Below are positions 6,088-24,195 of a stretch of 64,000 nucleotides of DNA, in pieces (within the stretch, counting starts at the first letter, position 1; the number at the start of each line of letters is the position of its first letter). The notes under the pieces are model-generated. The model had not been told where the DNA came from. It did not search any database and saw only the letters and a list, made by a program, of their open reading frames with translations. The translations under genes and the position numbers were made by a program. Source of the stretch: Catenulispora sp. EB89 (lineage in GTDB: Bacteria > Actinomycetota > Actinomycetes > Streptomycetales > Catenulisporaceae). The stretch covers positions 682,001 through 746,000 of the forward strand of contig NZ_JBGCCU010000001.1 of the NCBI RefSeq assembly GCF_041261445.1, given 5' to 3'.

Positions 6088-8688
6088 TCAGGCGGCCGGT
6101 CTTTTCTTCTTTCCGCTGCCGCCTTTGCTCGGGGCCGGCTTGAAGGAGGTGATGTACGCCGCCGTCGGCGAGCCGAGCCCGGTCGCCGTGTCGTAGCCCT
6201 TGCGGGCGCTCAGGCCGTGGTCGGAGCCGAGCTTGAACAGCCGTGCCTCGTGCACGTCGCCGAACATTCCGTGGTCCACGACGGCCGAGATCGGGTTCGG
6301 TGCGCCCTTCGGGTGGGCGACGATGTCGGTGAACTGCTTCGTGCCGGCCCGCTTGTACAGCGCGGGGTTGGCGAAGCCCAGCGCCCCGCCGGCCGCCTGC
6401 TCGGCGTCGGCCTGCACCGCGGCGAACATCGGGGCCGCGACCGACGTGCCGCCGACCACGTCCTGGCCGTAGCCGCCGAGGGTCGGGTCGGTGTGGCCGG
6501 TGAGCACGGCGGTCAGCAGGTCTCCGTCCATCGCGATGTCGGGGACGGTGCGCTTCGCGGGGCTGGCGGGCGGCGTCGGAGTCGGAGTCGGAGTTGGCGT
6601 TGGCGTTGGAGTCGGCGTCGGGTTCGGAGCTGGCGTTGGGGTCGGGGTCGGGGTCGGGGTTGGAGTTGGGGTTGGGGTTGGGGTTGGCGTCGGAGTTGGC
6701 GTCGGGTTCGGAGCTGGCGTCGGCGTCGGAGTGGTCGCGGCGGGCGGGGTCGGCGTGGCGGGCGGAGCGGTCGGGCCGACCGGAGCAGCCGGGCCGACCG
6801 GGCCAACCGGACCGGCCGGGCCCACCGGACCAGGCGTGCTGGCCGCGCCGCCCGATCCCGTCGGCCCACCCGCGTCGGACAAACCGGTCATCCCCTTCGT
6901 GCCGGTCGAGCCACCGGTCGAGCCACCACCGGCCGCGACCGCGACCTGCGCCAGATCCTTCGGTACCACACCCTTCTGATACGCCGGCTGCGCGAAGTCC
7001 GCACTGGCGCCCCCGCCTCCGCCGAAGAAGAACCGGCCGGGCATCGGCGTCCACGTGCTCCCGTCGGCCGACAGGTCCGAGCGCAGGTCGCCCATCGGCA
7101 CCTCCCAGTGCCGCGTGCCGGTCGGCCCGAGCGCCAGCGCCGTGCCGCCGACCGCGGTCACCCACGGCGACGCCGCCGGCCACTCCACCTGCGTGCCCGC
7201 CGATCCCGCGTCGCATCCCGGCCCGATCAGACCTGGCGCCTGGTCGCCGCAGTCCCCGGTGGCGAACGCGAACCCGATGCCCTCGGCCGCGCCGGTCGTG
7301 AAGATCTTGTTCTCCTGGTCGACCACCGCCGGATCGACGCCCTGGTCCGAGGAGTGCATGAGCTCGCCGAAGGACCCGGTGACGGTGTCGGCCAGGTGCT
7401 TGTCCACGATCGAGGCCAGCGTCGCGGCGATGTCCTGGTCCTGGCACGAGGCCGCGCCGAAGTAGTGCACGACCGCGTCCGGCGCGAGCCCGTGCGCCAT
7501 CTCCACGTCCAGCGCCTCCTCCCCGCCCCACGCCGCGGGGGTCTCGCACACGCCGTCGCCCAGGTGCTTCCACGCCCCGCGGTCCACGGACTCCGTGTAC
7601 TGCCCCGCCCCGAACGCCTTGTCCCCGACCGACGTCGCGAACTGGTTCGCGTCGGCCCGCATCGTCGGCGAGCCGTAGGCGTCGACGACGCCGATGATGA
7701 CGCCCTTGCCGGTGAAGCCGGACGCGGTGATCCCGTACGCGGCGCGCAACTGCTTCGGCGAGTAGCCGCAGACGACGAGCGGATCGGGCTTGTTGTAGCC
7801 CTGGGGGACGCCGGTCGCCGGGGAGCCGCCCCAGTCGGACGAGCACGCCGTGGACGTGGTCGACGGCAGCGTCGGGTCGCCGGGATCCAGCGGCAGGCTG
7901 CGCTTGATCGGCCCGCCGACGACGATGGGAAAGCCCGATCCGATAGGCCCCGCCGATCCGACCGGCCCCGACGGCTGCATAGGGCCGCCAGGATTGACCT
8001 GCGTGGTCGGGGCCTGAGGCCCGGCAGGCTGCATCGGCCCGCCCGGGTTCACGCCGGCCGTCGGAACGCTCGGCTCATCGGGACCGCCGACGCTGCCGGG
8101 CCCGGCAGGCCGCATCGGCCCGCCCGGATCAACCCCGCCCCCACTCAACACCCGCCGCCGCGCCCCCGCCGCGACCCGATAAGAGAACTGCCGCACCCCA
8201 TGCGTCTCCGGCACCAGCCCGGCCACGCTCGACACCGCCCCGACCAGCGCCGGCGGTACCTCCGCGGCCGCCCGCGCCGCCAGCCCCTCGCCCGGGTTGC
8301 TCCGCAGCCGCGGCAGCTGTCCGAACGCCTTCCGGATCTTCGCCGACGTCCCGGCCACATCGATCCAGTGGCTGTTCTCCCCGGCGACGGTCAGCCCGCC
8401 GTCGGCCAGCCACGTGTGCACCTTCTTCAGCTGCGCCGCCGTCGGCCCGAACTGAGCCTGGGCCTCCTCCGGCGTGAGGAAGTGGCGGTACTCCGCGCTG
8501 TGCGGATCCGACACCGCCGCCGCGAAGCGCTGTAACCCGTCCGGGTCAGCGCCGGCCAACCCGATCCGCGCAGTAGTAGGACCATCCACAACCGTCGCCG
8601 CCGTGGCCGTGACCGACAGCGAGCTCGGCCCCGTCACCAGCGCCGTGGCCACCAACGTGGCCGTCAGGTGCTTGAACCGCCCAACCAT
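6088..8688 (-). CDS. Secreted S53 (sedolisin/kumamolisin) serine-carboxyl protease with repeat insertion
   Basis: 866 residues from ATG 8688. This start gives a clean signal peptide ([17 protein letters not shown]) and has AGAGGG upstream; the frame opens 18 codons earlier but without a ribosome binding site. Order: signal peptide, pro-kumamolisin activation domain (about 35-165, with [20 protein letters not shown]), a Gly/Pro linker with three PGGPMxPxGP units (187-240), then the catalytic domain. Catalytic residues by motif: E390 and D394 (EEALD), oxyanion D479 (ATGDCGD), nucleophile S749 (GGTSVAAP), and a C-terminal Ca-site region ([22 protein letters not shown]). Between D479 and S749 there are about 270 residues rather than the roughly 120 usual in the family. 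The extra part is a collagen-like GPxGP tract and a long Pro-Thr repeat (about 650-700). Confidence 0.9.
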
Positions 8689-17994: not shown

Positions 17995-18048
17995 ATGGCT
18001 TCCGTATCTGCTCGCAGTCGCAGCCACACCGGTGGTGACGTCCGGTGA
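17995..18048 (+). CDS. Possible 17-residue leader frame overlapping the cvnA start
   Basis: ATG 17995 reads 17 codons (ASVSARSRSHTGGDVR after Met) to a TGA at 18046-18048, which overlaps the cvnA GTG in a GTGA overlap. It begins 6 nt after a TAGGGT box, which could make it leaderless. Translation of this frame would then deliver ribosomes to cvnA, which has no good ribosome binding site of its own. It has no family resemblance. Confidence 0.4.
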   Translation: MASVSARSRSHTGGDVR

Positions 18049-20456
18049 CCGCGGCGGACCGCGTCCAGGAGGCACCGCGTCCCCACGGCGCACCCGGCCG
18101 GCACTCGGCCTTCGGCGCCGCCTCCGAGCGCCGGGCCGCCGGCCGGCGGCCGACCGCCTGGATCGTGGCCCCCTCGGTGTTCTCGGCGGTGCTGGCGGCC
18201 GCGGCGATCTTCATCGTGGTGAACGGCGCGCACTCGGCGGGGTACCGCATCAGCGGCGGCACGATGACGACCGTCTACGTGCTCGGCGCCCTGATACTCG
18301 CGGTCGTCGTGGCCACGCTCGCCCTCGCGGGGCGTCCGGGCCGCACGGCCGAATTCGTGTCCTACCCCGAAGCCGAGCGCCGCCAGCCGCCGCAGGCACC
18401 GCACCAGTCGCACCAACCGCACCAACCGCACCAGCAGCAGCCGCCGATGCCGCAGCAGGCCCCGGCCCCGCTGCCGCAGCGGGTCCCGCCGCAGGCTCCG
18501 CCGCCGCCCCCGGTGTCCCCGCAGGTCGTCGCCAACGCGACCGAGGCGGCCGCGACGCTGGCCGCGGCGACCCGGGCCGCGGCCGGTCCGGCGTCCGTCT
18601 CCGACGAGGGCGTGGACCTGCAGGTCATCTTCGCGCAGCTGGTGCGCCGGCTGCTCACCCTGGTGCTGCAGCAGATCAACCGGCTCGACGAGCTGGAGAA
18701 CGAGGTCGAGGACCCCAAGCTCCTCAAGTCCTTGTTCGGCATCGACCACCAGGCCACCCAGGTCCGCCGGTACGGCGAGAACATCGGCGTCCTGGTGGGA
18801 GCGCTCCCGCAGCGGCAGTGGACGCACCCGGTGCCGGTCACCGTCGCGCAGCGCTCCGCGGTCTCCGAGACCCCCGACTACCCGCGCGTGCAGGTCATCC
18901 CCCGGGCCCCGGGCCGCATCCACGGCCACGCCGTCTCCGATGTCATCCACATCCTGTCCGAACTGGTCGAGAACGCCACCAACTACTCGAACCCGACCAC
19001 CAAGGTCACGGTCGGCGCGCACCGGGTGTCCGCGGGTCTGGCGATCGAGATCAACGACCACGGCATCGGTATGGAGCCGGACCAGTTCCGGCGGCTCAAC
19101 ACCCTGCTGCGCGACCCCTCCGGCGCCAACGTCAGGGACCTGCTCTCGCAGGGCCGCATCGGCCTGTCCGTGGTCGCGAAGATGGCCCAGCGGCACGGGA
19201 TCGCCGTCGAGCTGGCGCCGAACGTCACCGGCGGCACCATGGCCCTGGTGGTGATCCCGGACGCGCTGCTGGCGACCGAGGAGCTGCCGGCCGACCGGAA
19301 CCGCCAGCCGCGCCGCGGCATCGACACCACGCAGCTGCCGGCCCGCCCCGCGCTGGTCTCGCTGCCGGACGCGGTCACGCCGGCCCCGGCAGCCGCCCCG
19401 AGTTCGGCCGCCTCGCTGTCCCCGGTGGCCGCCTCCACGCTGCCGCTGCCCGCGCCGGCCACGTCGCAGGTGCCGCCGCTGCCGACCGCCGACGACACGT
19501 ACCGCCTGGGGCAGCAGAACTCCGTGCGGGCGGCGTCGCAGGACACTGCGCAGGCGGGCTCGTCGGTCTCGTCGGGCTCGTCGGGTCCGTCATGGGCCGC
19601 CGCGCCGCCGCTGCCGACCGCACTGGCCGGCGGGTCCGAGACGTCGAGCTCGGGCTTCTCCTGGGACGCGCTGTCGACGTCGACCAACGCTGCCGACGAG
19701 GCGTCGAGCTCGGGTTCCGGCTGGGACGCGCTGTCGAGCCCGTCGACCACTTCGAGCCTGTCGGGCACCGCGGACCAGTCGTCGCGCCCGGCCCCGGCCA
19801 CCTCGGTCTGGCCCGCTGAGCCGCGGCAACCCCAGCACTCCCAGTCGGCCTCTGCGACGCCGGCGTCCCCGGCGTCCCCGGCAACCTCGTCCGGGTCGCA
19901 GCCGAGCTACTCCCAGTCGGCCCAGGGCCTGCCGATCCGGCCGCAGCCGGCCCCGGCCGAGCCGCAGTGGCCGTCCACCACCCCGCCGACGGCGACCGGC
20001 GGCCCCGCGCCGGTCCAGGCCGCGCCGGTGCCGCGCCCCACCGGCTCCGCCGCGTACCCGCAGCCGTCGGCCGGCCAGTACCCGGGCCAGGGCCCGGGTG
20101 CCGGCGCGCCGCCGTGGTCCCAGGCCGGTGCGCCGCAGCAGGCCGGCCAGCCGGGCTCCCCGCAGGCTTCCCAGCCGGGCCCGCAGCCGCAGCCGGGCTC
20201 CGCGCCGGGCCTGCTGCCCGACGGCCGCCCGCAGCTGCGCCGCCGCACCCCTCAGGGCCACATCTCCGCGCGCCTGATCCAGGCTGAAGGACAGGAGAGC
20301 CGGCCGCACGACGGCGGTGCCCTGTCGCCGACGATGATGTCGGACTTCTGGCAGGGCCTGTCCTCGGGTACCGCGCCGGCCGACCCCCCGGCGGCCGGAC
20401 CGGACCCTTCGCAGCACGATCGCACCACCGCGAACCGTCAGGAGTGGAACCAGTGA
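18045..20456 (+). CDS. cvnA: Conservon sensor-kinase-like protein CvnA
   Basis: 803 residues. It has two membrane helices (about 39-59 and 76-95) separated by only about 16 residues, so there is almost no external sensor domain. A His/Gln/Pro-rich stretch follows (119-131, HQSHQPHQPHQQQ) and then a Pro-rich linker. A helical dimer region (about 185-240) precedes a HATPase domain with N box LSELVENATNYS (about 303), G1 INDHGIGM (about 336) and G2 GRIGLSVVAKMAQ (about 370). There is no convincing phospho-acceptor His box. About 380 residues of Ser/Pro/Gln-rich disordered tail complete it. Known CvnA proteins form a membrane complex with CvnB, C and D, akin to a eukaryotic G-protein-coupled system. 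The start follows from the GTGA overlap; the stop overlaps cvnB. Confidence 0.88.
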   Translation: MTAADRVQEAPRPHGAPGRHSAFGAASERRAAGRRPTAWIVAPSVFSAVLAAAAIFIVVNGAHSAGYRISGGTMTTVYVLGALILAVVVATLALAGRPGRTAEFVSYPEAERRQPPQAPHQSHQPHQPHQQQPPMPQQAPAPLPQRVPPQAPPPPPVSPQVVANATEAAATLAAATRAAAGPASVSDEGVDLQVIFAQLVRRLLTLVLQQINRLDELENEVEDPKLLKSLFGIDHQATQVRRYGENIGVLVGALPQRQWTHPVPVTVAQRSAVSETPDYPRVQVIPRAPGRIHGHAVSDVIHILSELVENATNYSNPTTKVTVGAHRVSAGLAIEINDHGIGMEPDQFRRLNTLLRDPSGANVRDLLSQGRIGLSVVAKMAQRHGIAVELAPNVTGGTMALVVIPDALLATEELPADRNRQPRRGIDTTQLPARPALVSLPDAVTPAPAAAPSSAASLSPVAASTLPLPAPATSQVPPLPTADDTYRLGQQNSVRAASQDTAQAGSSVSSGSSGPSWAAAPPLPTALAGGSETSSSGFSWDALSTSTNAADEASSSGSGWDALSSPSTTSSLSGTADQSSRPAPATSVWPAEPRQPQHSQSASATPASPASPATSSGSQPSYSQSAQGLPIRPQPAPAEPQWPSTTPPTATGGPAPVQAAPVPRPTGSAAYPQPSAGQYPGQGPGAGAPPWSQAGAPQQAGQPGSPQASQPGPQPQPGSAPGLLPDGRPQLRRRTPQGHISARLIQAEGQESRPHDGGALSPTMMSDFWQGLSSGTAPADPPAAGPDPSQHDRTTANRQEWNQ

Positions 20457-20887
20457 GCAGCAACCAGACCGAAGAGAATCTCAGCTGGCTGATCAACCGG
20501 ATGCTGCAGAGCATCCCGGCCGCCCGCAGCGTGCTGCTGATGTCGACGGACGGTTTGGTCCGCGCCTACACCACCGGTCTGAGCAAGGACGAGGCCGACA
20601 CCCTGGCCGCCGCCGAGAGCGGCATGTGGGGCATCGTCACGGCCATCGGCAGGACCGTGCACGCCGGAAGCGTGCGCCAGGTCGTGGTGGAGCTCGACGG
20701 CGCGTTCCTGTGCGTCGGCGCGGCCGGCCCCGGCACCTGCATCGGGGTGCTCGCCGACCGCGGCGCCGACCCCCGGCAGATCGGGTTCGAGATGCAGCGC
20801 TGCGTCACCGCCGTCGAGCGGGAACTGTCCACGGCCCCGCGCGGCGCCGCGGACGGGGCGGTGGCAGCAGCGCGGGCCCGGTCGTGA
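20453..20887 (+). CDS. cvnB: Conservon roadblock/LC7 protein CvnB
   Basis: 144 residues from GTG 20453, overlapping the cvnA stop in GTGA with CAGGAG upstream. It is a single roadblock/LC7 fold: LSWLINRMLQSIPAARSVLLM, STDGLVRAYTTGLSKDEAD, then VRQVVVELDGAFLCVGAAGP. LC7 proteins act as regulators or exchange platforms for small GTPases such as MglA, and CvnB is thought to work on CvnD. The C-terminal tail is Ala-rich. Confidence 0.92.
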   Translation: MSSNQTEENLSWLINRMLQSIPAARSVLLMSTDGLVRAYTTGLSKDEADTLAAAESGMWGIVTAIGRTVHAGSVRQVVVELDGAFLCVGAAGPGTCIGVLADRGADPRQIGFEMQRCVTAVERELSTAPRGAADGAVAAARARS

Positions 20888-21255
20888 GCCGGGGCGATCC
20901 CGATGCCTTCGTCGACTCCGCGGCCGGCCGGCTCATCCGGCCGTACGCGGTCGCCGGCGGCCGGACGGCGCCGAACGCCGACTTCCACCTGGTGACCTAC
21001 GTGGTGGCCACCGGCCGGGCCCTGGGAGACCTGGGCCCGGACCACGACGACATCCTGAGCCTGTGCGACCGGCCGATCTCGGTCGCCGAGGTCTCCGCGC
21101 TGTCCGGGCTCCCGCTGGCCGTCACCAAGATCCTGCTGTCCGACCTGCTCGGCTGGCGCGCGATAGACACCCGCGCGCCCGTGCCCGTCTTCGAACGGGC
21201 CCGGCCGAGCACAGACCTTCTGGAGAAGGTGCTGGATGCCCTCTACAAGCTCTGA
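20884..21255 (+). CDS. cvnC: Conservon DUF742 protein CvnC
   Basis: 123 residues from GTG 20884, again a GTGA overlap with the preceding gene. DUF742 is marked by RLIRPYAVAGGRTAP, FHLVTYVVATGR and the C-terminal winged-helix-like SVAEVSALSGLPLAVTKILL-SDLLGWRAID. In conservons this protein interacts with CvnB or CvnD. Its last 20 nt overlap the start of cvnD. Confidence 0.92.
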   Translation: MSRGDPDAFVDSAAGRLIRPYAVAGGRTAPNADFHLVTYVVATGRALGDLGPDHDDILSLCDRPISVAEVSALSGLPLAVTKILLSDLLGWRAIDTRAPVPVFERARPSTDLLEKVLDALYKL

Positions 21256-21856
21256 GCTGCCCGGCGGTCTCAAGCTCCTGATAGCCGGCGGCTTCGGCGT
21301 CGGCAAGACCACGCTGGTCGGGGCGGTCTCCGAGATCGCGCCGCTGAAGACCGAGGCGACGATCACCGAGGCCAGCGTCGGCTACGACGACATCGCGCTC
21401 ACCGGCGGCAAGACCACCACCACGGTGGCCCTGGACTTCGGCCGGATCAGCATCGCCAACGAGTACGTGCTGTTCCTGTTCGGGATGCCCGGCCAGGAGC
21501 GGTTCTGGTTCATGTGGGACCAGCTGTGCATCGGCGCGCTCGGCGTCATCGTGCTGGTCGACACCCGCCGCATCGAGGACTCCTTCGAGGCCGTGGACTA
21601 CTTCGAGCGCACCGGGATCCCGTTCCTGGTCGCGGTCAACGAGTTCGAGGGCGCGCAGTTCGCCTACACCGCCGTCGAGGTGCGTGAAGCGCTCCAGCTG
21701 CGCGCCGAGGTCCCGGTGGTGATGTGCGACGCCCGCTCGCGCACCTCGGCCGTGAACGTCCTCATCGCGTTGGTGAAGCACCTGCAGAGCACCGACTACC
21801 GGACCGTCCGGCCATCCGCCCCCGAGCTGGCCGCGCATGAAGGAAGCTACATATGA
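21236..21856 (+). CDS. cvnD: Conservon GTPase CvnD
   Basis: 206 residues from ATG 21236, overlapping cvnC by 20 nt. The P-loop GGFGVGKTTL (about 17-26) and the switch/G3 region GMPGQERFWFMWDQL (about 83) mark a small Ras-like GTP-binding protein of the MglA/CvnD group. The G4 position reads VAVNEFEG, lacking the Lys of NKxD, as is usual for CvnD. It would be the output GTPase of the conservon, at the membrane through its partners. Its stop overlaps the next start (ATGA). Confidence 0.92.
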   Translation: MPSTSSELPGGLKLLIAGGFGVGKTTLVGAVSEIAPLKTEATITEASVGYDDIALTGGKTTTTVALDFGRISIANEYVLFLFGMPGQERFWFMWDQLCIGALGVIVLVDTRRIEDSFEAVDYFERTGIPFLVAVNEFEGAQFAYTAVEVREALQLRAEVPVVMCDARSRTSAVNVLIALVKHLQSTDYRTVRPSAPELAAHEGSYI

Positions 21857-22821
21857 CAGAGCGCGACGACTTCCAGACCCCGGCCCTGCGGCTGGGCCGG
21901 CCGGCGCCCTCCGACGCCGCCGCGCGCGCGGCCCGCCAGCGCGAGCTGGGCCTGGCCAGCACGCCGGACTCGGTGTTCGACGAGGTCGCGCGCAGGGCGG
22001 CCGAGGCCACCGGCGCAACCGCGGCGATGGTGAACCTGGTCGGCGAGTCCGGGCAGTACTTCGTGGGCCTGTACGGCAAGGAGCCGGCCAGCGGCGACCC
22101 GGCGTTCCTGGGCGACCCGGGCCGGTTCATGGACATGGACCAGGGTTTCTGCGTGCACGTCGTGGGCCGCAAGGCCGCGCTCACCCTGGACGACGTCTTC
22201 GAGTTCTCCCGCTTCCGCGGCAACCCGGTGGTGGACGAGCTCGGCGTGCGCAGCTACATCGGCGTGCCGCTGATCGACGACGACGGGACGGTGATCGGCA
22301 CGGTGTGCGCGATCGACCCGGCGCCCCGAAGCGAAGCGGAGGGGAATTCCTGGGGCAATCAGGGCCTCCAGGTGCTCAAGGCGGCGCGCGACGAGGTGCT
22401 GGCGGAAATCAGCGGTCGGCAGAAAATCGCCGGGGTGTTGGAGGGCGCCGGCGGCACGGCCATGATCGCCGCGCGCCCGGGCCTGGAGGTGCTGTACGCG
22501 AACACCCTGCACGATCAGCTCTTCGGCGTCGTGGAGATGCTCGGCACGCCGGCCCCCGAGGCGTTCCCGCACCTCGCGCCGGTCGGCATCCTGGCGGTGA
22601 TCGAGCACCTGGACCGCGGCGGCGAGCCGACGGCCACCGCGCCGATCCCGTTGAACGAGCCCGCGACCGGCTCGGTGATCTTCGCCGCGGTCCCGGTCCG
22701 GGTCCCCGGCCACGACGCCGCGGTGCTGACTCTGGGGCTGCGGGACAGCGACGGCGCAACCGTCCTGAGCCGGGCCAGAGCACTCGCCTCGGACATCGGG
22801 GACCTTGCGGACACAATCTGA
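21853..22821 (+). CDS. GAF-domain protein, fifth gene of the conservon
   Basis: 322 residues from ATG 21853, overlapping cvnD in ATGA, so certainly in the operon. After a disordered start, residues about 35-165 form a GAF domain (FDEVARRAAEATGATAAMVNL, GFCVHVVGRKAALTLDDV, IGVPLIDDDGTVIGTVCAID). A second, PAS-like part follows (about 200-320). It has no kinase, phosphatase, cyclase or DNA-binding domain. GAF domains bind cyclic nucleotides, haem or other small ligands, so this protein could be the sensor missing from CvnA; that is inference. Conservons often end with cytochrome P450 genes, and none is here. Confidence 0.85.
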   Translation: MTERDDFQTPALRLGRPAPSDAAARAARQRELGLASTPDSVFDEVARRAAEATGATAAMVNLVGESGQYFVGLYGKEPASGDPAFLGDPGRFMDMDQGFCVHVVGRKAALTLDDVFEFSRFRGNPVVDELGVRSYIGVPLIDDDGTVIGTVCAIDPAPRSEAEGNSWGNQGLQVLKAARDEVLAEISGRQKIAGVLEGAGGTAMIAARPGLEVLYANTLHDQLFGVVEMLGTPAPEAFPHLAPVGILAVIEHLDRGGEPTATAPIPLNEPATGSVIFAAVPVRVPGHDAAVLTLGLRDSDGATVLSRARALASDIGDLADTI

Positions 22822-22980: not shown

Positions 22981-24195
22981 GTGTCAGCACTCATGAACCA
23001 GGTCTTCACCAACGACCGGCATGAGGCGGTGCGGGAGGAGGTCCGGGCTTTCGCCGAGCAGCACGTGCGGCCGCGGGTGGCGCAGATGGAGGACTCCCGC
23101 GAGGTCGACCACGAGCTCTCCGCGGCGATCGCCCGGCGCGGCTGGATCGGCGCGACCATCCCGGTCGAGTACGGCGGGATGGAACTCGGGCACCTCGGCA
23201 AGACCATCATCATCGAGGAGCTGTCCCGGGTCTCGGCGGCGATGGGCGCCATGGCGCAGGCCTCGCAGCTCGGTGTGGCCAAGATCCTGCACTTCGGCAC
23301 CGAGGCGCAGCGCCGAAGATGGCTCCCGCCGATCGCCACCGGGAACTGCCTGCCCACCATCGCGGTGACCGAGCCGGAATCCGGCGGGCACGTGCTGGGC
23401 ATGTCCGGCAACGCGGTGCGCGAGGGTGACCACTACGTCCTGAACGCCCGCAAGGTATTCGTGGGCAACTCGCACGTTGGGCACGTCCACGGCGTCGTGG
23501 TCCGCACCGGTCCCGGCTCCAAGGGCCTGAGCGCCTTCCTGGTCGAGTACGACCGCCCCGGCGTCCGCCTGGAACCGCTGGACCCGACCATGGGCCTGCA
23601 CGGCTTCAGCTTCGGCGAGATCGTCATGGAGAACTGCCGAATACCGGTGGAGAACCGACTCGGACAGGAGGGCGAGGGGCTGGACGTGGCCTACTCGTCC
23701 AGCACGCTTTACGGGCGCCCGAACCTCACCGCGGTGGCCCTGGGCATCCACCAGGCGATCGTCGAGGACACGGTCGCCTACTGCCAGCAGCGCCGGCTCT
23801 ACGACGCCCCGATCCACGAGATCTCCTCGATCAAGGTCCGGCTCGGCGACATGCAGTCCCGGCTGATGACGGCGCGTCTGGCCGCGTACCACGCCGTCTA
23901 CCTGCTGGACCAGGGCCTGCCCTGCGACACGGAGCTGATGAACGCCAAGCTGGTCAACGTCGAGTTCGCCATCGACTCCGCACGCGCGGCGATGGACATC
24001 GTCGGCGCCCGCGGCCTGCAGACCCGGTACCGGATCGAGCGGTATCTGCGCGACGCCTATCACGTGCTCGCGCCCGCCGGCACGGCCGACATCCAGCGGC
24101 TGCGCCTGGCCGAGGCGGCGCTGAACGTCGACCGCGGGCAGTGGTCGGCGCGGTTCTCCAAGGAAGTGCGGGTCCGGGATTCCGGGCTGGTGTAA
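22981..24195 (+). CDS. Acyl-CoA-dehydrogenase-like flavoprotein lacking the catalytic Glu
   Basis: 404 residues from GTG 22981, with GAGGAGAGAG 3-12 nt upstream. The order is that of the acyl-CoA dehydrogenase fold: N-terminal helices (FAEQHVRPRVAQMEDSREVD), GATIPVEYGG, the flavin-binding TEPESGGHVLGM, KVFVGNSHVGHV, and the C-terminal helical domain with RRLYDAPIHEISSIKVRLGDMQ. Where these enzymes carry the catalytic base (YEGTxxIQR), this protein reads APAGTADIQRL, so the Glu is Ala366. The alternative base position used by isovaleryl and long-chain enzymes also lacks Glu. It may be a flavin monooxygenase-type or ACP-acting relative, as in some biosynthetic clusters, or use another residue. 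It is 160 bp downstream of the conservon and could be its target. Confidence 0.8.
   Translation: MSALMNQVFTNDRHEAVREEVRAFAEQHVRPRVAQMEDSREVDHELSAAIARRGWIGATIPVEYGGMELGHLGKTIIIEELSRVSAAMGAMAQASQLGVAKILHFGTEAQRRRWLPPIATGNCLPTIAVTEPESGGHVLGMSGNAVREGDHYVLNARKVFVGNSHVGHVHGVVVRTGPGSKGLSAFLVEYDRPGVRLEPLDPTMGLHGFSFGEIVMENCRIPVENRLGQEGEGLDVAYSSSTLYGRPNLTAVALGIHQAIVEDTVAYCQQRRLYDAPIHEISSIKVRLGDMQSRLMTARLAAYHAVYLLDQGLPCDTELMNAKLVNVEFAIDSARAAMDIVGARGLQTRYRIERYLRDAYHVLAPAGTADIQRLRLAEAALNVDRGQWSARFSKEVRVRDSGLV

Follow-up and report, generated by a model that had tools for sequence, protein, structure and literature searches.

A GAF-PAS form of the conservon accessory protein CvnF in Catenulispora, encoded beside a CvnA without an ectodomain

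The window analyzed here, a 64,000-nucleotide stretch of DNA from Catenulispora sp. EB89, contains a complete cvnA-cvnB-cvnC-cvnD conservon followed by a gene for a GAF protein, together occupying positions 18045-22821 of the forward strand, with every junction of the five genes overlapping. The first gene, cvnA (18045..20456), codes for an 803-aa histidine-kinase-like protein with a Pfam HATPase_c match at residues 299-406; cvnB (20453..20887) codes for a roadblock/LC7 protein of the MglB type (Pfam Robl_LC7) and has a GTGA overlap with cvnA; cvnC (20884..21255), with a GTGA overlap with cvnB, matches Pfam DUF742; and cvnD (21236..21856), which overlaps cvnC by 20 bp, codes for a small Ras-like GTPase (Pfam P-loop GTPase-type ATP_bind_1). 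HATPase_c, roadblock, DUF742, and small GTPase thus follow one another in the cvnA-B-C-D order of a conservon. The fifth gene, cvnF (21853..22821, forward strand), codes for a GAF-PAS accessory protein of 322 aa, and AAGGAAG lies immediately 5′ of its start. The ATG of cvnF lies in an ATGA at 21853-21856 that also contains the TGA stop codon of cvnD (21854-21856), giving a 4-bp overlap that the sequence-only reading took to tie the GAF protein to the GTPase gene. This observation stands, with the same spacing (−4) and an ATG start in each of the nine Catenulispora loci read, and a −4 overlap in many Streptomyces cvnF loci; because it recurs so widely, it is not a chance arrangement. Neither a sigma-70-type promoter nor a convincing terminator was found at the locus, a negative result that carries no information for a GC-rich actinomycete.

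The source genome (11.9 Mb) has five DUF742 loci, and there is no second match to the CvnF GAF protein elsewhere in it. Three additional roadblock/LC7 loci (G000:C8:171737-172009, G000:C8:290917-291174, and G000:C56:9544-9816) have no DUF742 match nearby and are therefore not ordinary conservons. An acyl-CoA dehydrogenase gene (22984-24195) begins ~160 bp after cvnF, and in L010-L013, the four other Catenulispora loci that extend far enough, it occupies the same position; the gene may be a target of the Cvn system or its neighbor.

GAF is the sole Pfam domain of the fifth protein above cut-off (residues 38-169, E 2.4e-13), with PAS_4 below its cut-off; from Pfam and alignment, the GAF domain region as a whole spans residues 21-190 (21913..22422, forward strand). 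The gene lies directly after cvnD and four genes after cvnA, and Bednarz and colleagues (2021) gave the name cvnF to the GAF gene after cvnD8 (PMC8510531). In a maximum-likelihood GAF-domain tree, the Catenulispora and Streptomyces conservon GAF proteins form one clade (support 100/99), which includes the additional CvnF (L082, GAF-only) that one Catenulispora genome encodes; orphan GAF-PAS proteins fall outside this clade, and other GAF proteins lie further out. The fifth gene is cvnF, a published type of accessory gene. The sequence-only reading started from conservons terminating in either cvnD or P450 genes and proposed a different layout, but that premise is out of date (PMC8510531, PMC13343842) and the layout is the published cvnF layout. 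That cvnF is merely co-transcribed and has no conservon role is hardly credible, since Catenulispora, Streptomyces, and a further family all keep the overlap and gene order and the GAF proteins linked to conservons make up a clade of their own, although there are orphan GAF-PAS relatives without a cvnD directly upstream.

The GAF part of CvnF has dN/dS values of 0.09-0.34. A regular-expression scan of CvnF did not find the NKFDE motif of cyclic-nucleotide-binding GAF domains, which argues against a cyclic nucleotide as the ligand. We also considered a Cys/His metal or Fe-S site, as every member of the clade has GFCxHV and GTVC, but many outgroup GAF domains contain FCxH and GTxC too, so the motifs are not specific and the candidate was rejected.

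CvnA has transmembrane segments at about residues 39-59 and 78-96, and the hydrophobic segment, loop, and second segment read AWIVAPSVFSAVLAAAAIFIVV-NGAHSAGYRISGGTMTTV-YVLGALILAVVVATLALAG. Because only ~18 residues separate the two hydrophobic segments, CvnA has no ectodomain and no extracytoplasmic sensor domain, as the sequence-only reading had supposed, and the loop is about 16-18 aa in every Catenulispora locus where it is readable. The DHp-like histidine H235 (FGIDHQATQVRRYGEN), N box, and G box are all kept, and the protein has a long tail of low complexity. Conservons 7 and 8 of Streptomyces coelicolor, which have cvnF, also have CvnA loops of <20 residues (PMC8510531), and across 2,175 CvnA sequences Cantu Morin and colleagues (2026) report that CvnE and CvnF go with sensor-less CvnA (PMC13343842).

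We surveyed conservon regions (DUF742 loci) of Catenulispora and its relatives, four Streptomyces genomes, and other families of the class, finding cvnA, cvnB, cvnC, cvnD, and fifth genes with profiles built in this analysis, taking the CvnA loop as the gap between hydrophobic segments, and counting the 83 conservons with clear topology. Among 24 short-loop conservons, eight have a GAF gene, 15 a P450-like gene, and one neither, whereas the 59 long-loop conservons (roughly 140-320 aa) have no GAF and no P450 fifth gene. The association of a GAF fifth gene with a short loop (8/24 versus 0/59) has a Fisher p of 1.9e-5, which is indicative only, as the surveyed genomes are related and their independence is overstated; the result is insensitive to the hydrophobicity threshold. 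The sequence-only reading had called for such a survey, and the equal rate of GAF genes beside full-ectodomain CvnA that would have spoken against it is not seen. No GAF or P450 family is present among the 25 Pfam families listed for 85 ORFs 3′ of long-loop conservons, and in 21 further loci, picked for having a GAF gene and including one or two that repeat or closely resemble Catenulispora loci, all 21 CvnA loops are 12-21 aa. These data independently replicate, in another genome sample, the finding that conservon accessory genes accompany sensor-less CvnA proteins, and they lend weight to the published view of CvnF as the provider of the input that CvnA is missing.

Many CvnE proteins escaped a P450 motif scan but were recovered by a profile made from its matches, and Pfam scores are weak for most CvnE proteins tested. 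The P450-like CvnE proteins (L075, L080, L100-L101, L112-L116, L122-L136, and L150-L186) keep the heme cysteine in GPHxCP or GEHxCP, and all those aligned have Trp, Tyr, His, or Phe in place of the EXXR arginine, a loss already known for CYP157 (PMC3599690); a second P450 that often adjoins CvnE has a normal EETLR. Four ORFs 3′ of long-loop conservons match Smoa_sbd, a styrene-monooxygenase-type substrate-binding domain, and may represent a recurrent neighbor. In a single case (L177, G002:C10), an orphan GAF-PAS gene (7176-8276, forward strand) lies divergently beside a long-loop conservon (CvnA loop ~303 aa).

Relative to the GAF-only CvnF proteins of Streptomyces, the Catenulispora CvnF is extended at its C terminus by about 133 residues, and the domain that they form (about residues 198-306; 22444..22770, forward strand) is present in none of the Streptomyces CvnF proteins examined. 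AlphaFold2 predicts a beta-beta-helix-helix-three-strand-helix fold for this tail with pLDDT mostly 75-93, save for a weak loop at 224-241, in a model of the whole protein that was made from six near-identical sequences and has a mean pLDDT of 60, with the GAF part mostly <70. Foldseek matches the tail model to PAS and LOV domains with a probability of 1.00, and VIA-align gives a Z score of 9.1 to the SrrB PAS domain and 7-8.5 to roadblock proteins. The tail could alternatively be roadblock/LC7-like and pair with the roadblock of CvnB, in line with Z scores of 8.4 to p14 (LAMTOR2) and 7.3 to a Streptomyces roadblock protein; roadblock and PAS domains have a common topology, however, so similar Z scores to both are expected. 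A roadblock tail, suggested by the structural Z scores, was rejected on sequence profiles: Pfam Robl_LC7 has no match in the domain, hhalign finds no match to the CvnB alignment (profile-profile probability 0.1 on the percent scale), and a profile run against all PDB sequences picks up the Rv1364c PAS domain (E 8.6e-9) and no roadblock. The tail also carries the PAS signature YANxxxxxxFG, and elsewhere the homologues closest to it are PAS_4-type domains in SpoIIE phosphatases, so that we consider the roadblock assignment very improbable. By its sequence profiles, which decide the matter, together with its predicted fold, the C-terminal domain is a PAS domain, although single-sequence Pfam searches match PAS_4 and PAS_8 only below threshold; the sequence-only reading, which called the protein GAF/PAS-like, was right on both counts. 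The PAS part has dN/dS values of about 0.2-0.46 across five relatives and is under purifying constraint.

CvnF has been described as a single-GAF protein (PMC13343842), and the modest novelty here is a GAF-PAS variant of CvnF that is confined to Catenulispora among the genomes examined. The PAS tail is probably a second input, or a dimerization and interface module. Four Streptomyces genomes and a single genome from a third family encode orphan GAF-PAS proteins, and as these proteins branch outside the CvnF clade, a two-domain ancestor is possible, from which GAF-only CvnF proteins may have lost the PAS domain; it is also possible that the PAS domain was regained in Catenulispora, and the internal branches that bear on loss versus regain have weak support (81/55).

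CvnF8 of S. coelicolor was proposed to be the sensory input of CvnA8 (PMC8510531). It co-purifies with CvnA8 and raises its ATP hydrolysis, with a 10-fold increase in Vmax, and its autophosphorylation (PMC13343842), and the phenotypes of delta-cvnA8 and delta-cvnF8 mutants are parallel (PMC8510531, PMC13343842). The Catenulispora locus has the operon structure, the orthology, the short-loop CvnA, the intact kinase motifs, and a PAS-fold tail, and by analogy with CvnF8 we infer that its CvnF binds and stimulates CvnA, noting that CvnF8 is GAF-only and roughly 45% identical, and that the added domain may change how the protein behaves. With good confidence, then, we identify the gene as cvnF, whose protein most probably associates with CvnA in the cytosol and adjusts CvnA autophosphorylation to a cytosolic cue bound by the GAF domain. 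CvnF would bind the DHp/HATPase part of CvnA, and CvnA activity would be raised when the GAF domain holds (or loses) a putative small molecule; the signal would pass onward from CvnA to CvnB (GAP-like) and CvnC (GEF-like), roles known for the mycobacterial Mfp system (cited in PMC13343842), and then to the GTPase CvnD, with the Catenulispora PAS domain perhaps adding another input or serving as a dimer interface.

The sequence-only reading had the GAF protein delivering a small-molecule signal to the complex, and a sensory input agrees with the CvnF8 biochemistry; it had expected CvnD or CvnB as the partner, whereas the published partner of CvnF8 is CvnA8. A GAF protein that bypassed CvnA and acted directly on CvnD or CvnB, in the GTPase module, would fit the translational coupling of cvnF to cvnD and the relatedness of GAF, roadblock, and PAS as alpha/beta folds, also reflected in the Z scores of the CvnF tail to roadblock proteins. 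However, the GAF gene tracks the architecture of CvnA and not CvnD, and with the CvnF8 partnership and the parallel mutant phenotypes we regard direct action as unlikely; by analogy, CvnA is the more likely partner of CvnF. The earlier interpretation is partly supported; it is largely right but already published. Whether a two-module GAF-PAS CvnF integrates two cytosolic cues, or its PAS domain serves to dimerize and to grip the CvnA dimer, before the signal passes to the GTPase, and whether it might preserve the ancestral form of GAF-only CvnF, is a proposal to which we give roughly even chances. The Catenulispora protein offers a natural domain variant for asking what CvnF senses and how it is docked on CvnA.

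CvnF8 and CvnF7 of S. coelicolor are likewise GAF proteins encoded directly after cvnD, with a cognate CvnA that has no sensor domain, and like Catenulispora CvnF they lack the NKFDE motif. The Catenulispora GAF domain belongs with those of the Streptomyces conservon GAF proteins, but these end 3-17 aa past the GAF domain, whereas Catenulispora CvnF continues into the PAS domain. The orphan GAF-PAS proteins (L177 and L179-L182) have the same domain order, and their C-terminal domain is homologous to the Catenulispora tail (20-27% identity, with YANxxxxxxFG and PVR...VLT in common), but their genes have no cvnD directly upstream. CvnE, a CYP157-type P450, is also encoded by a fifth gene beside a short-loop CvnA, but has a P450 fold and not a GAF fold. 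The PAS domains of Mycobacterium tuberculosis Rv1364c and SpoIIE-type phosphatases resemble the C-terminal domain of CvnF, although they are found within an anti-sigma regulator or phosphatase rather than in a conservon accessory protein.
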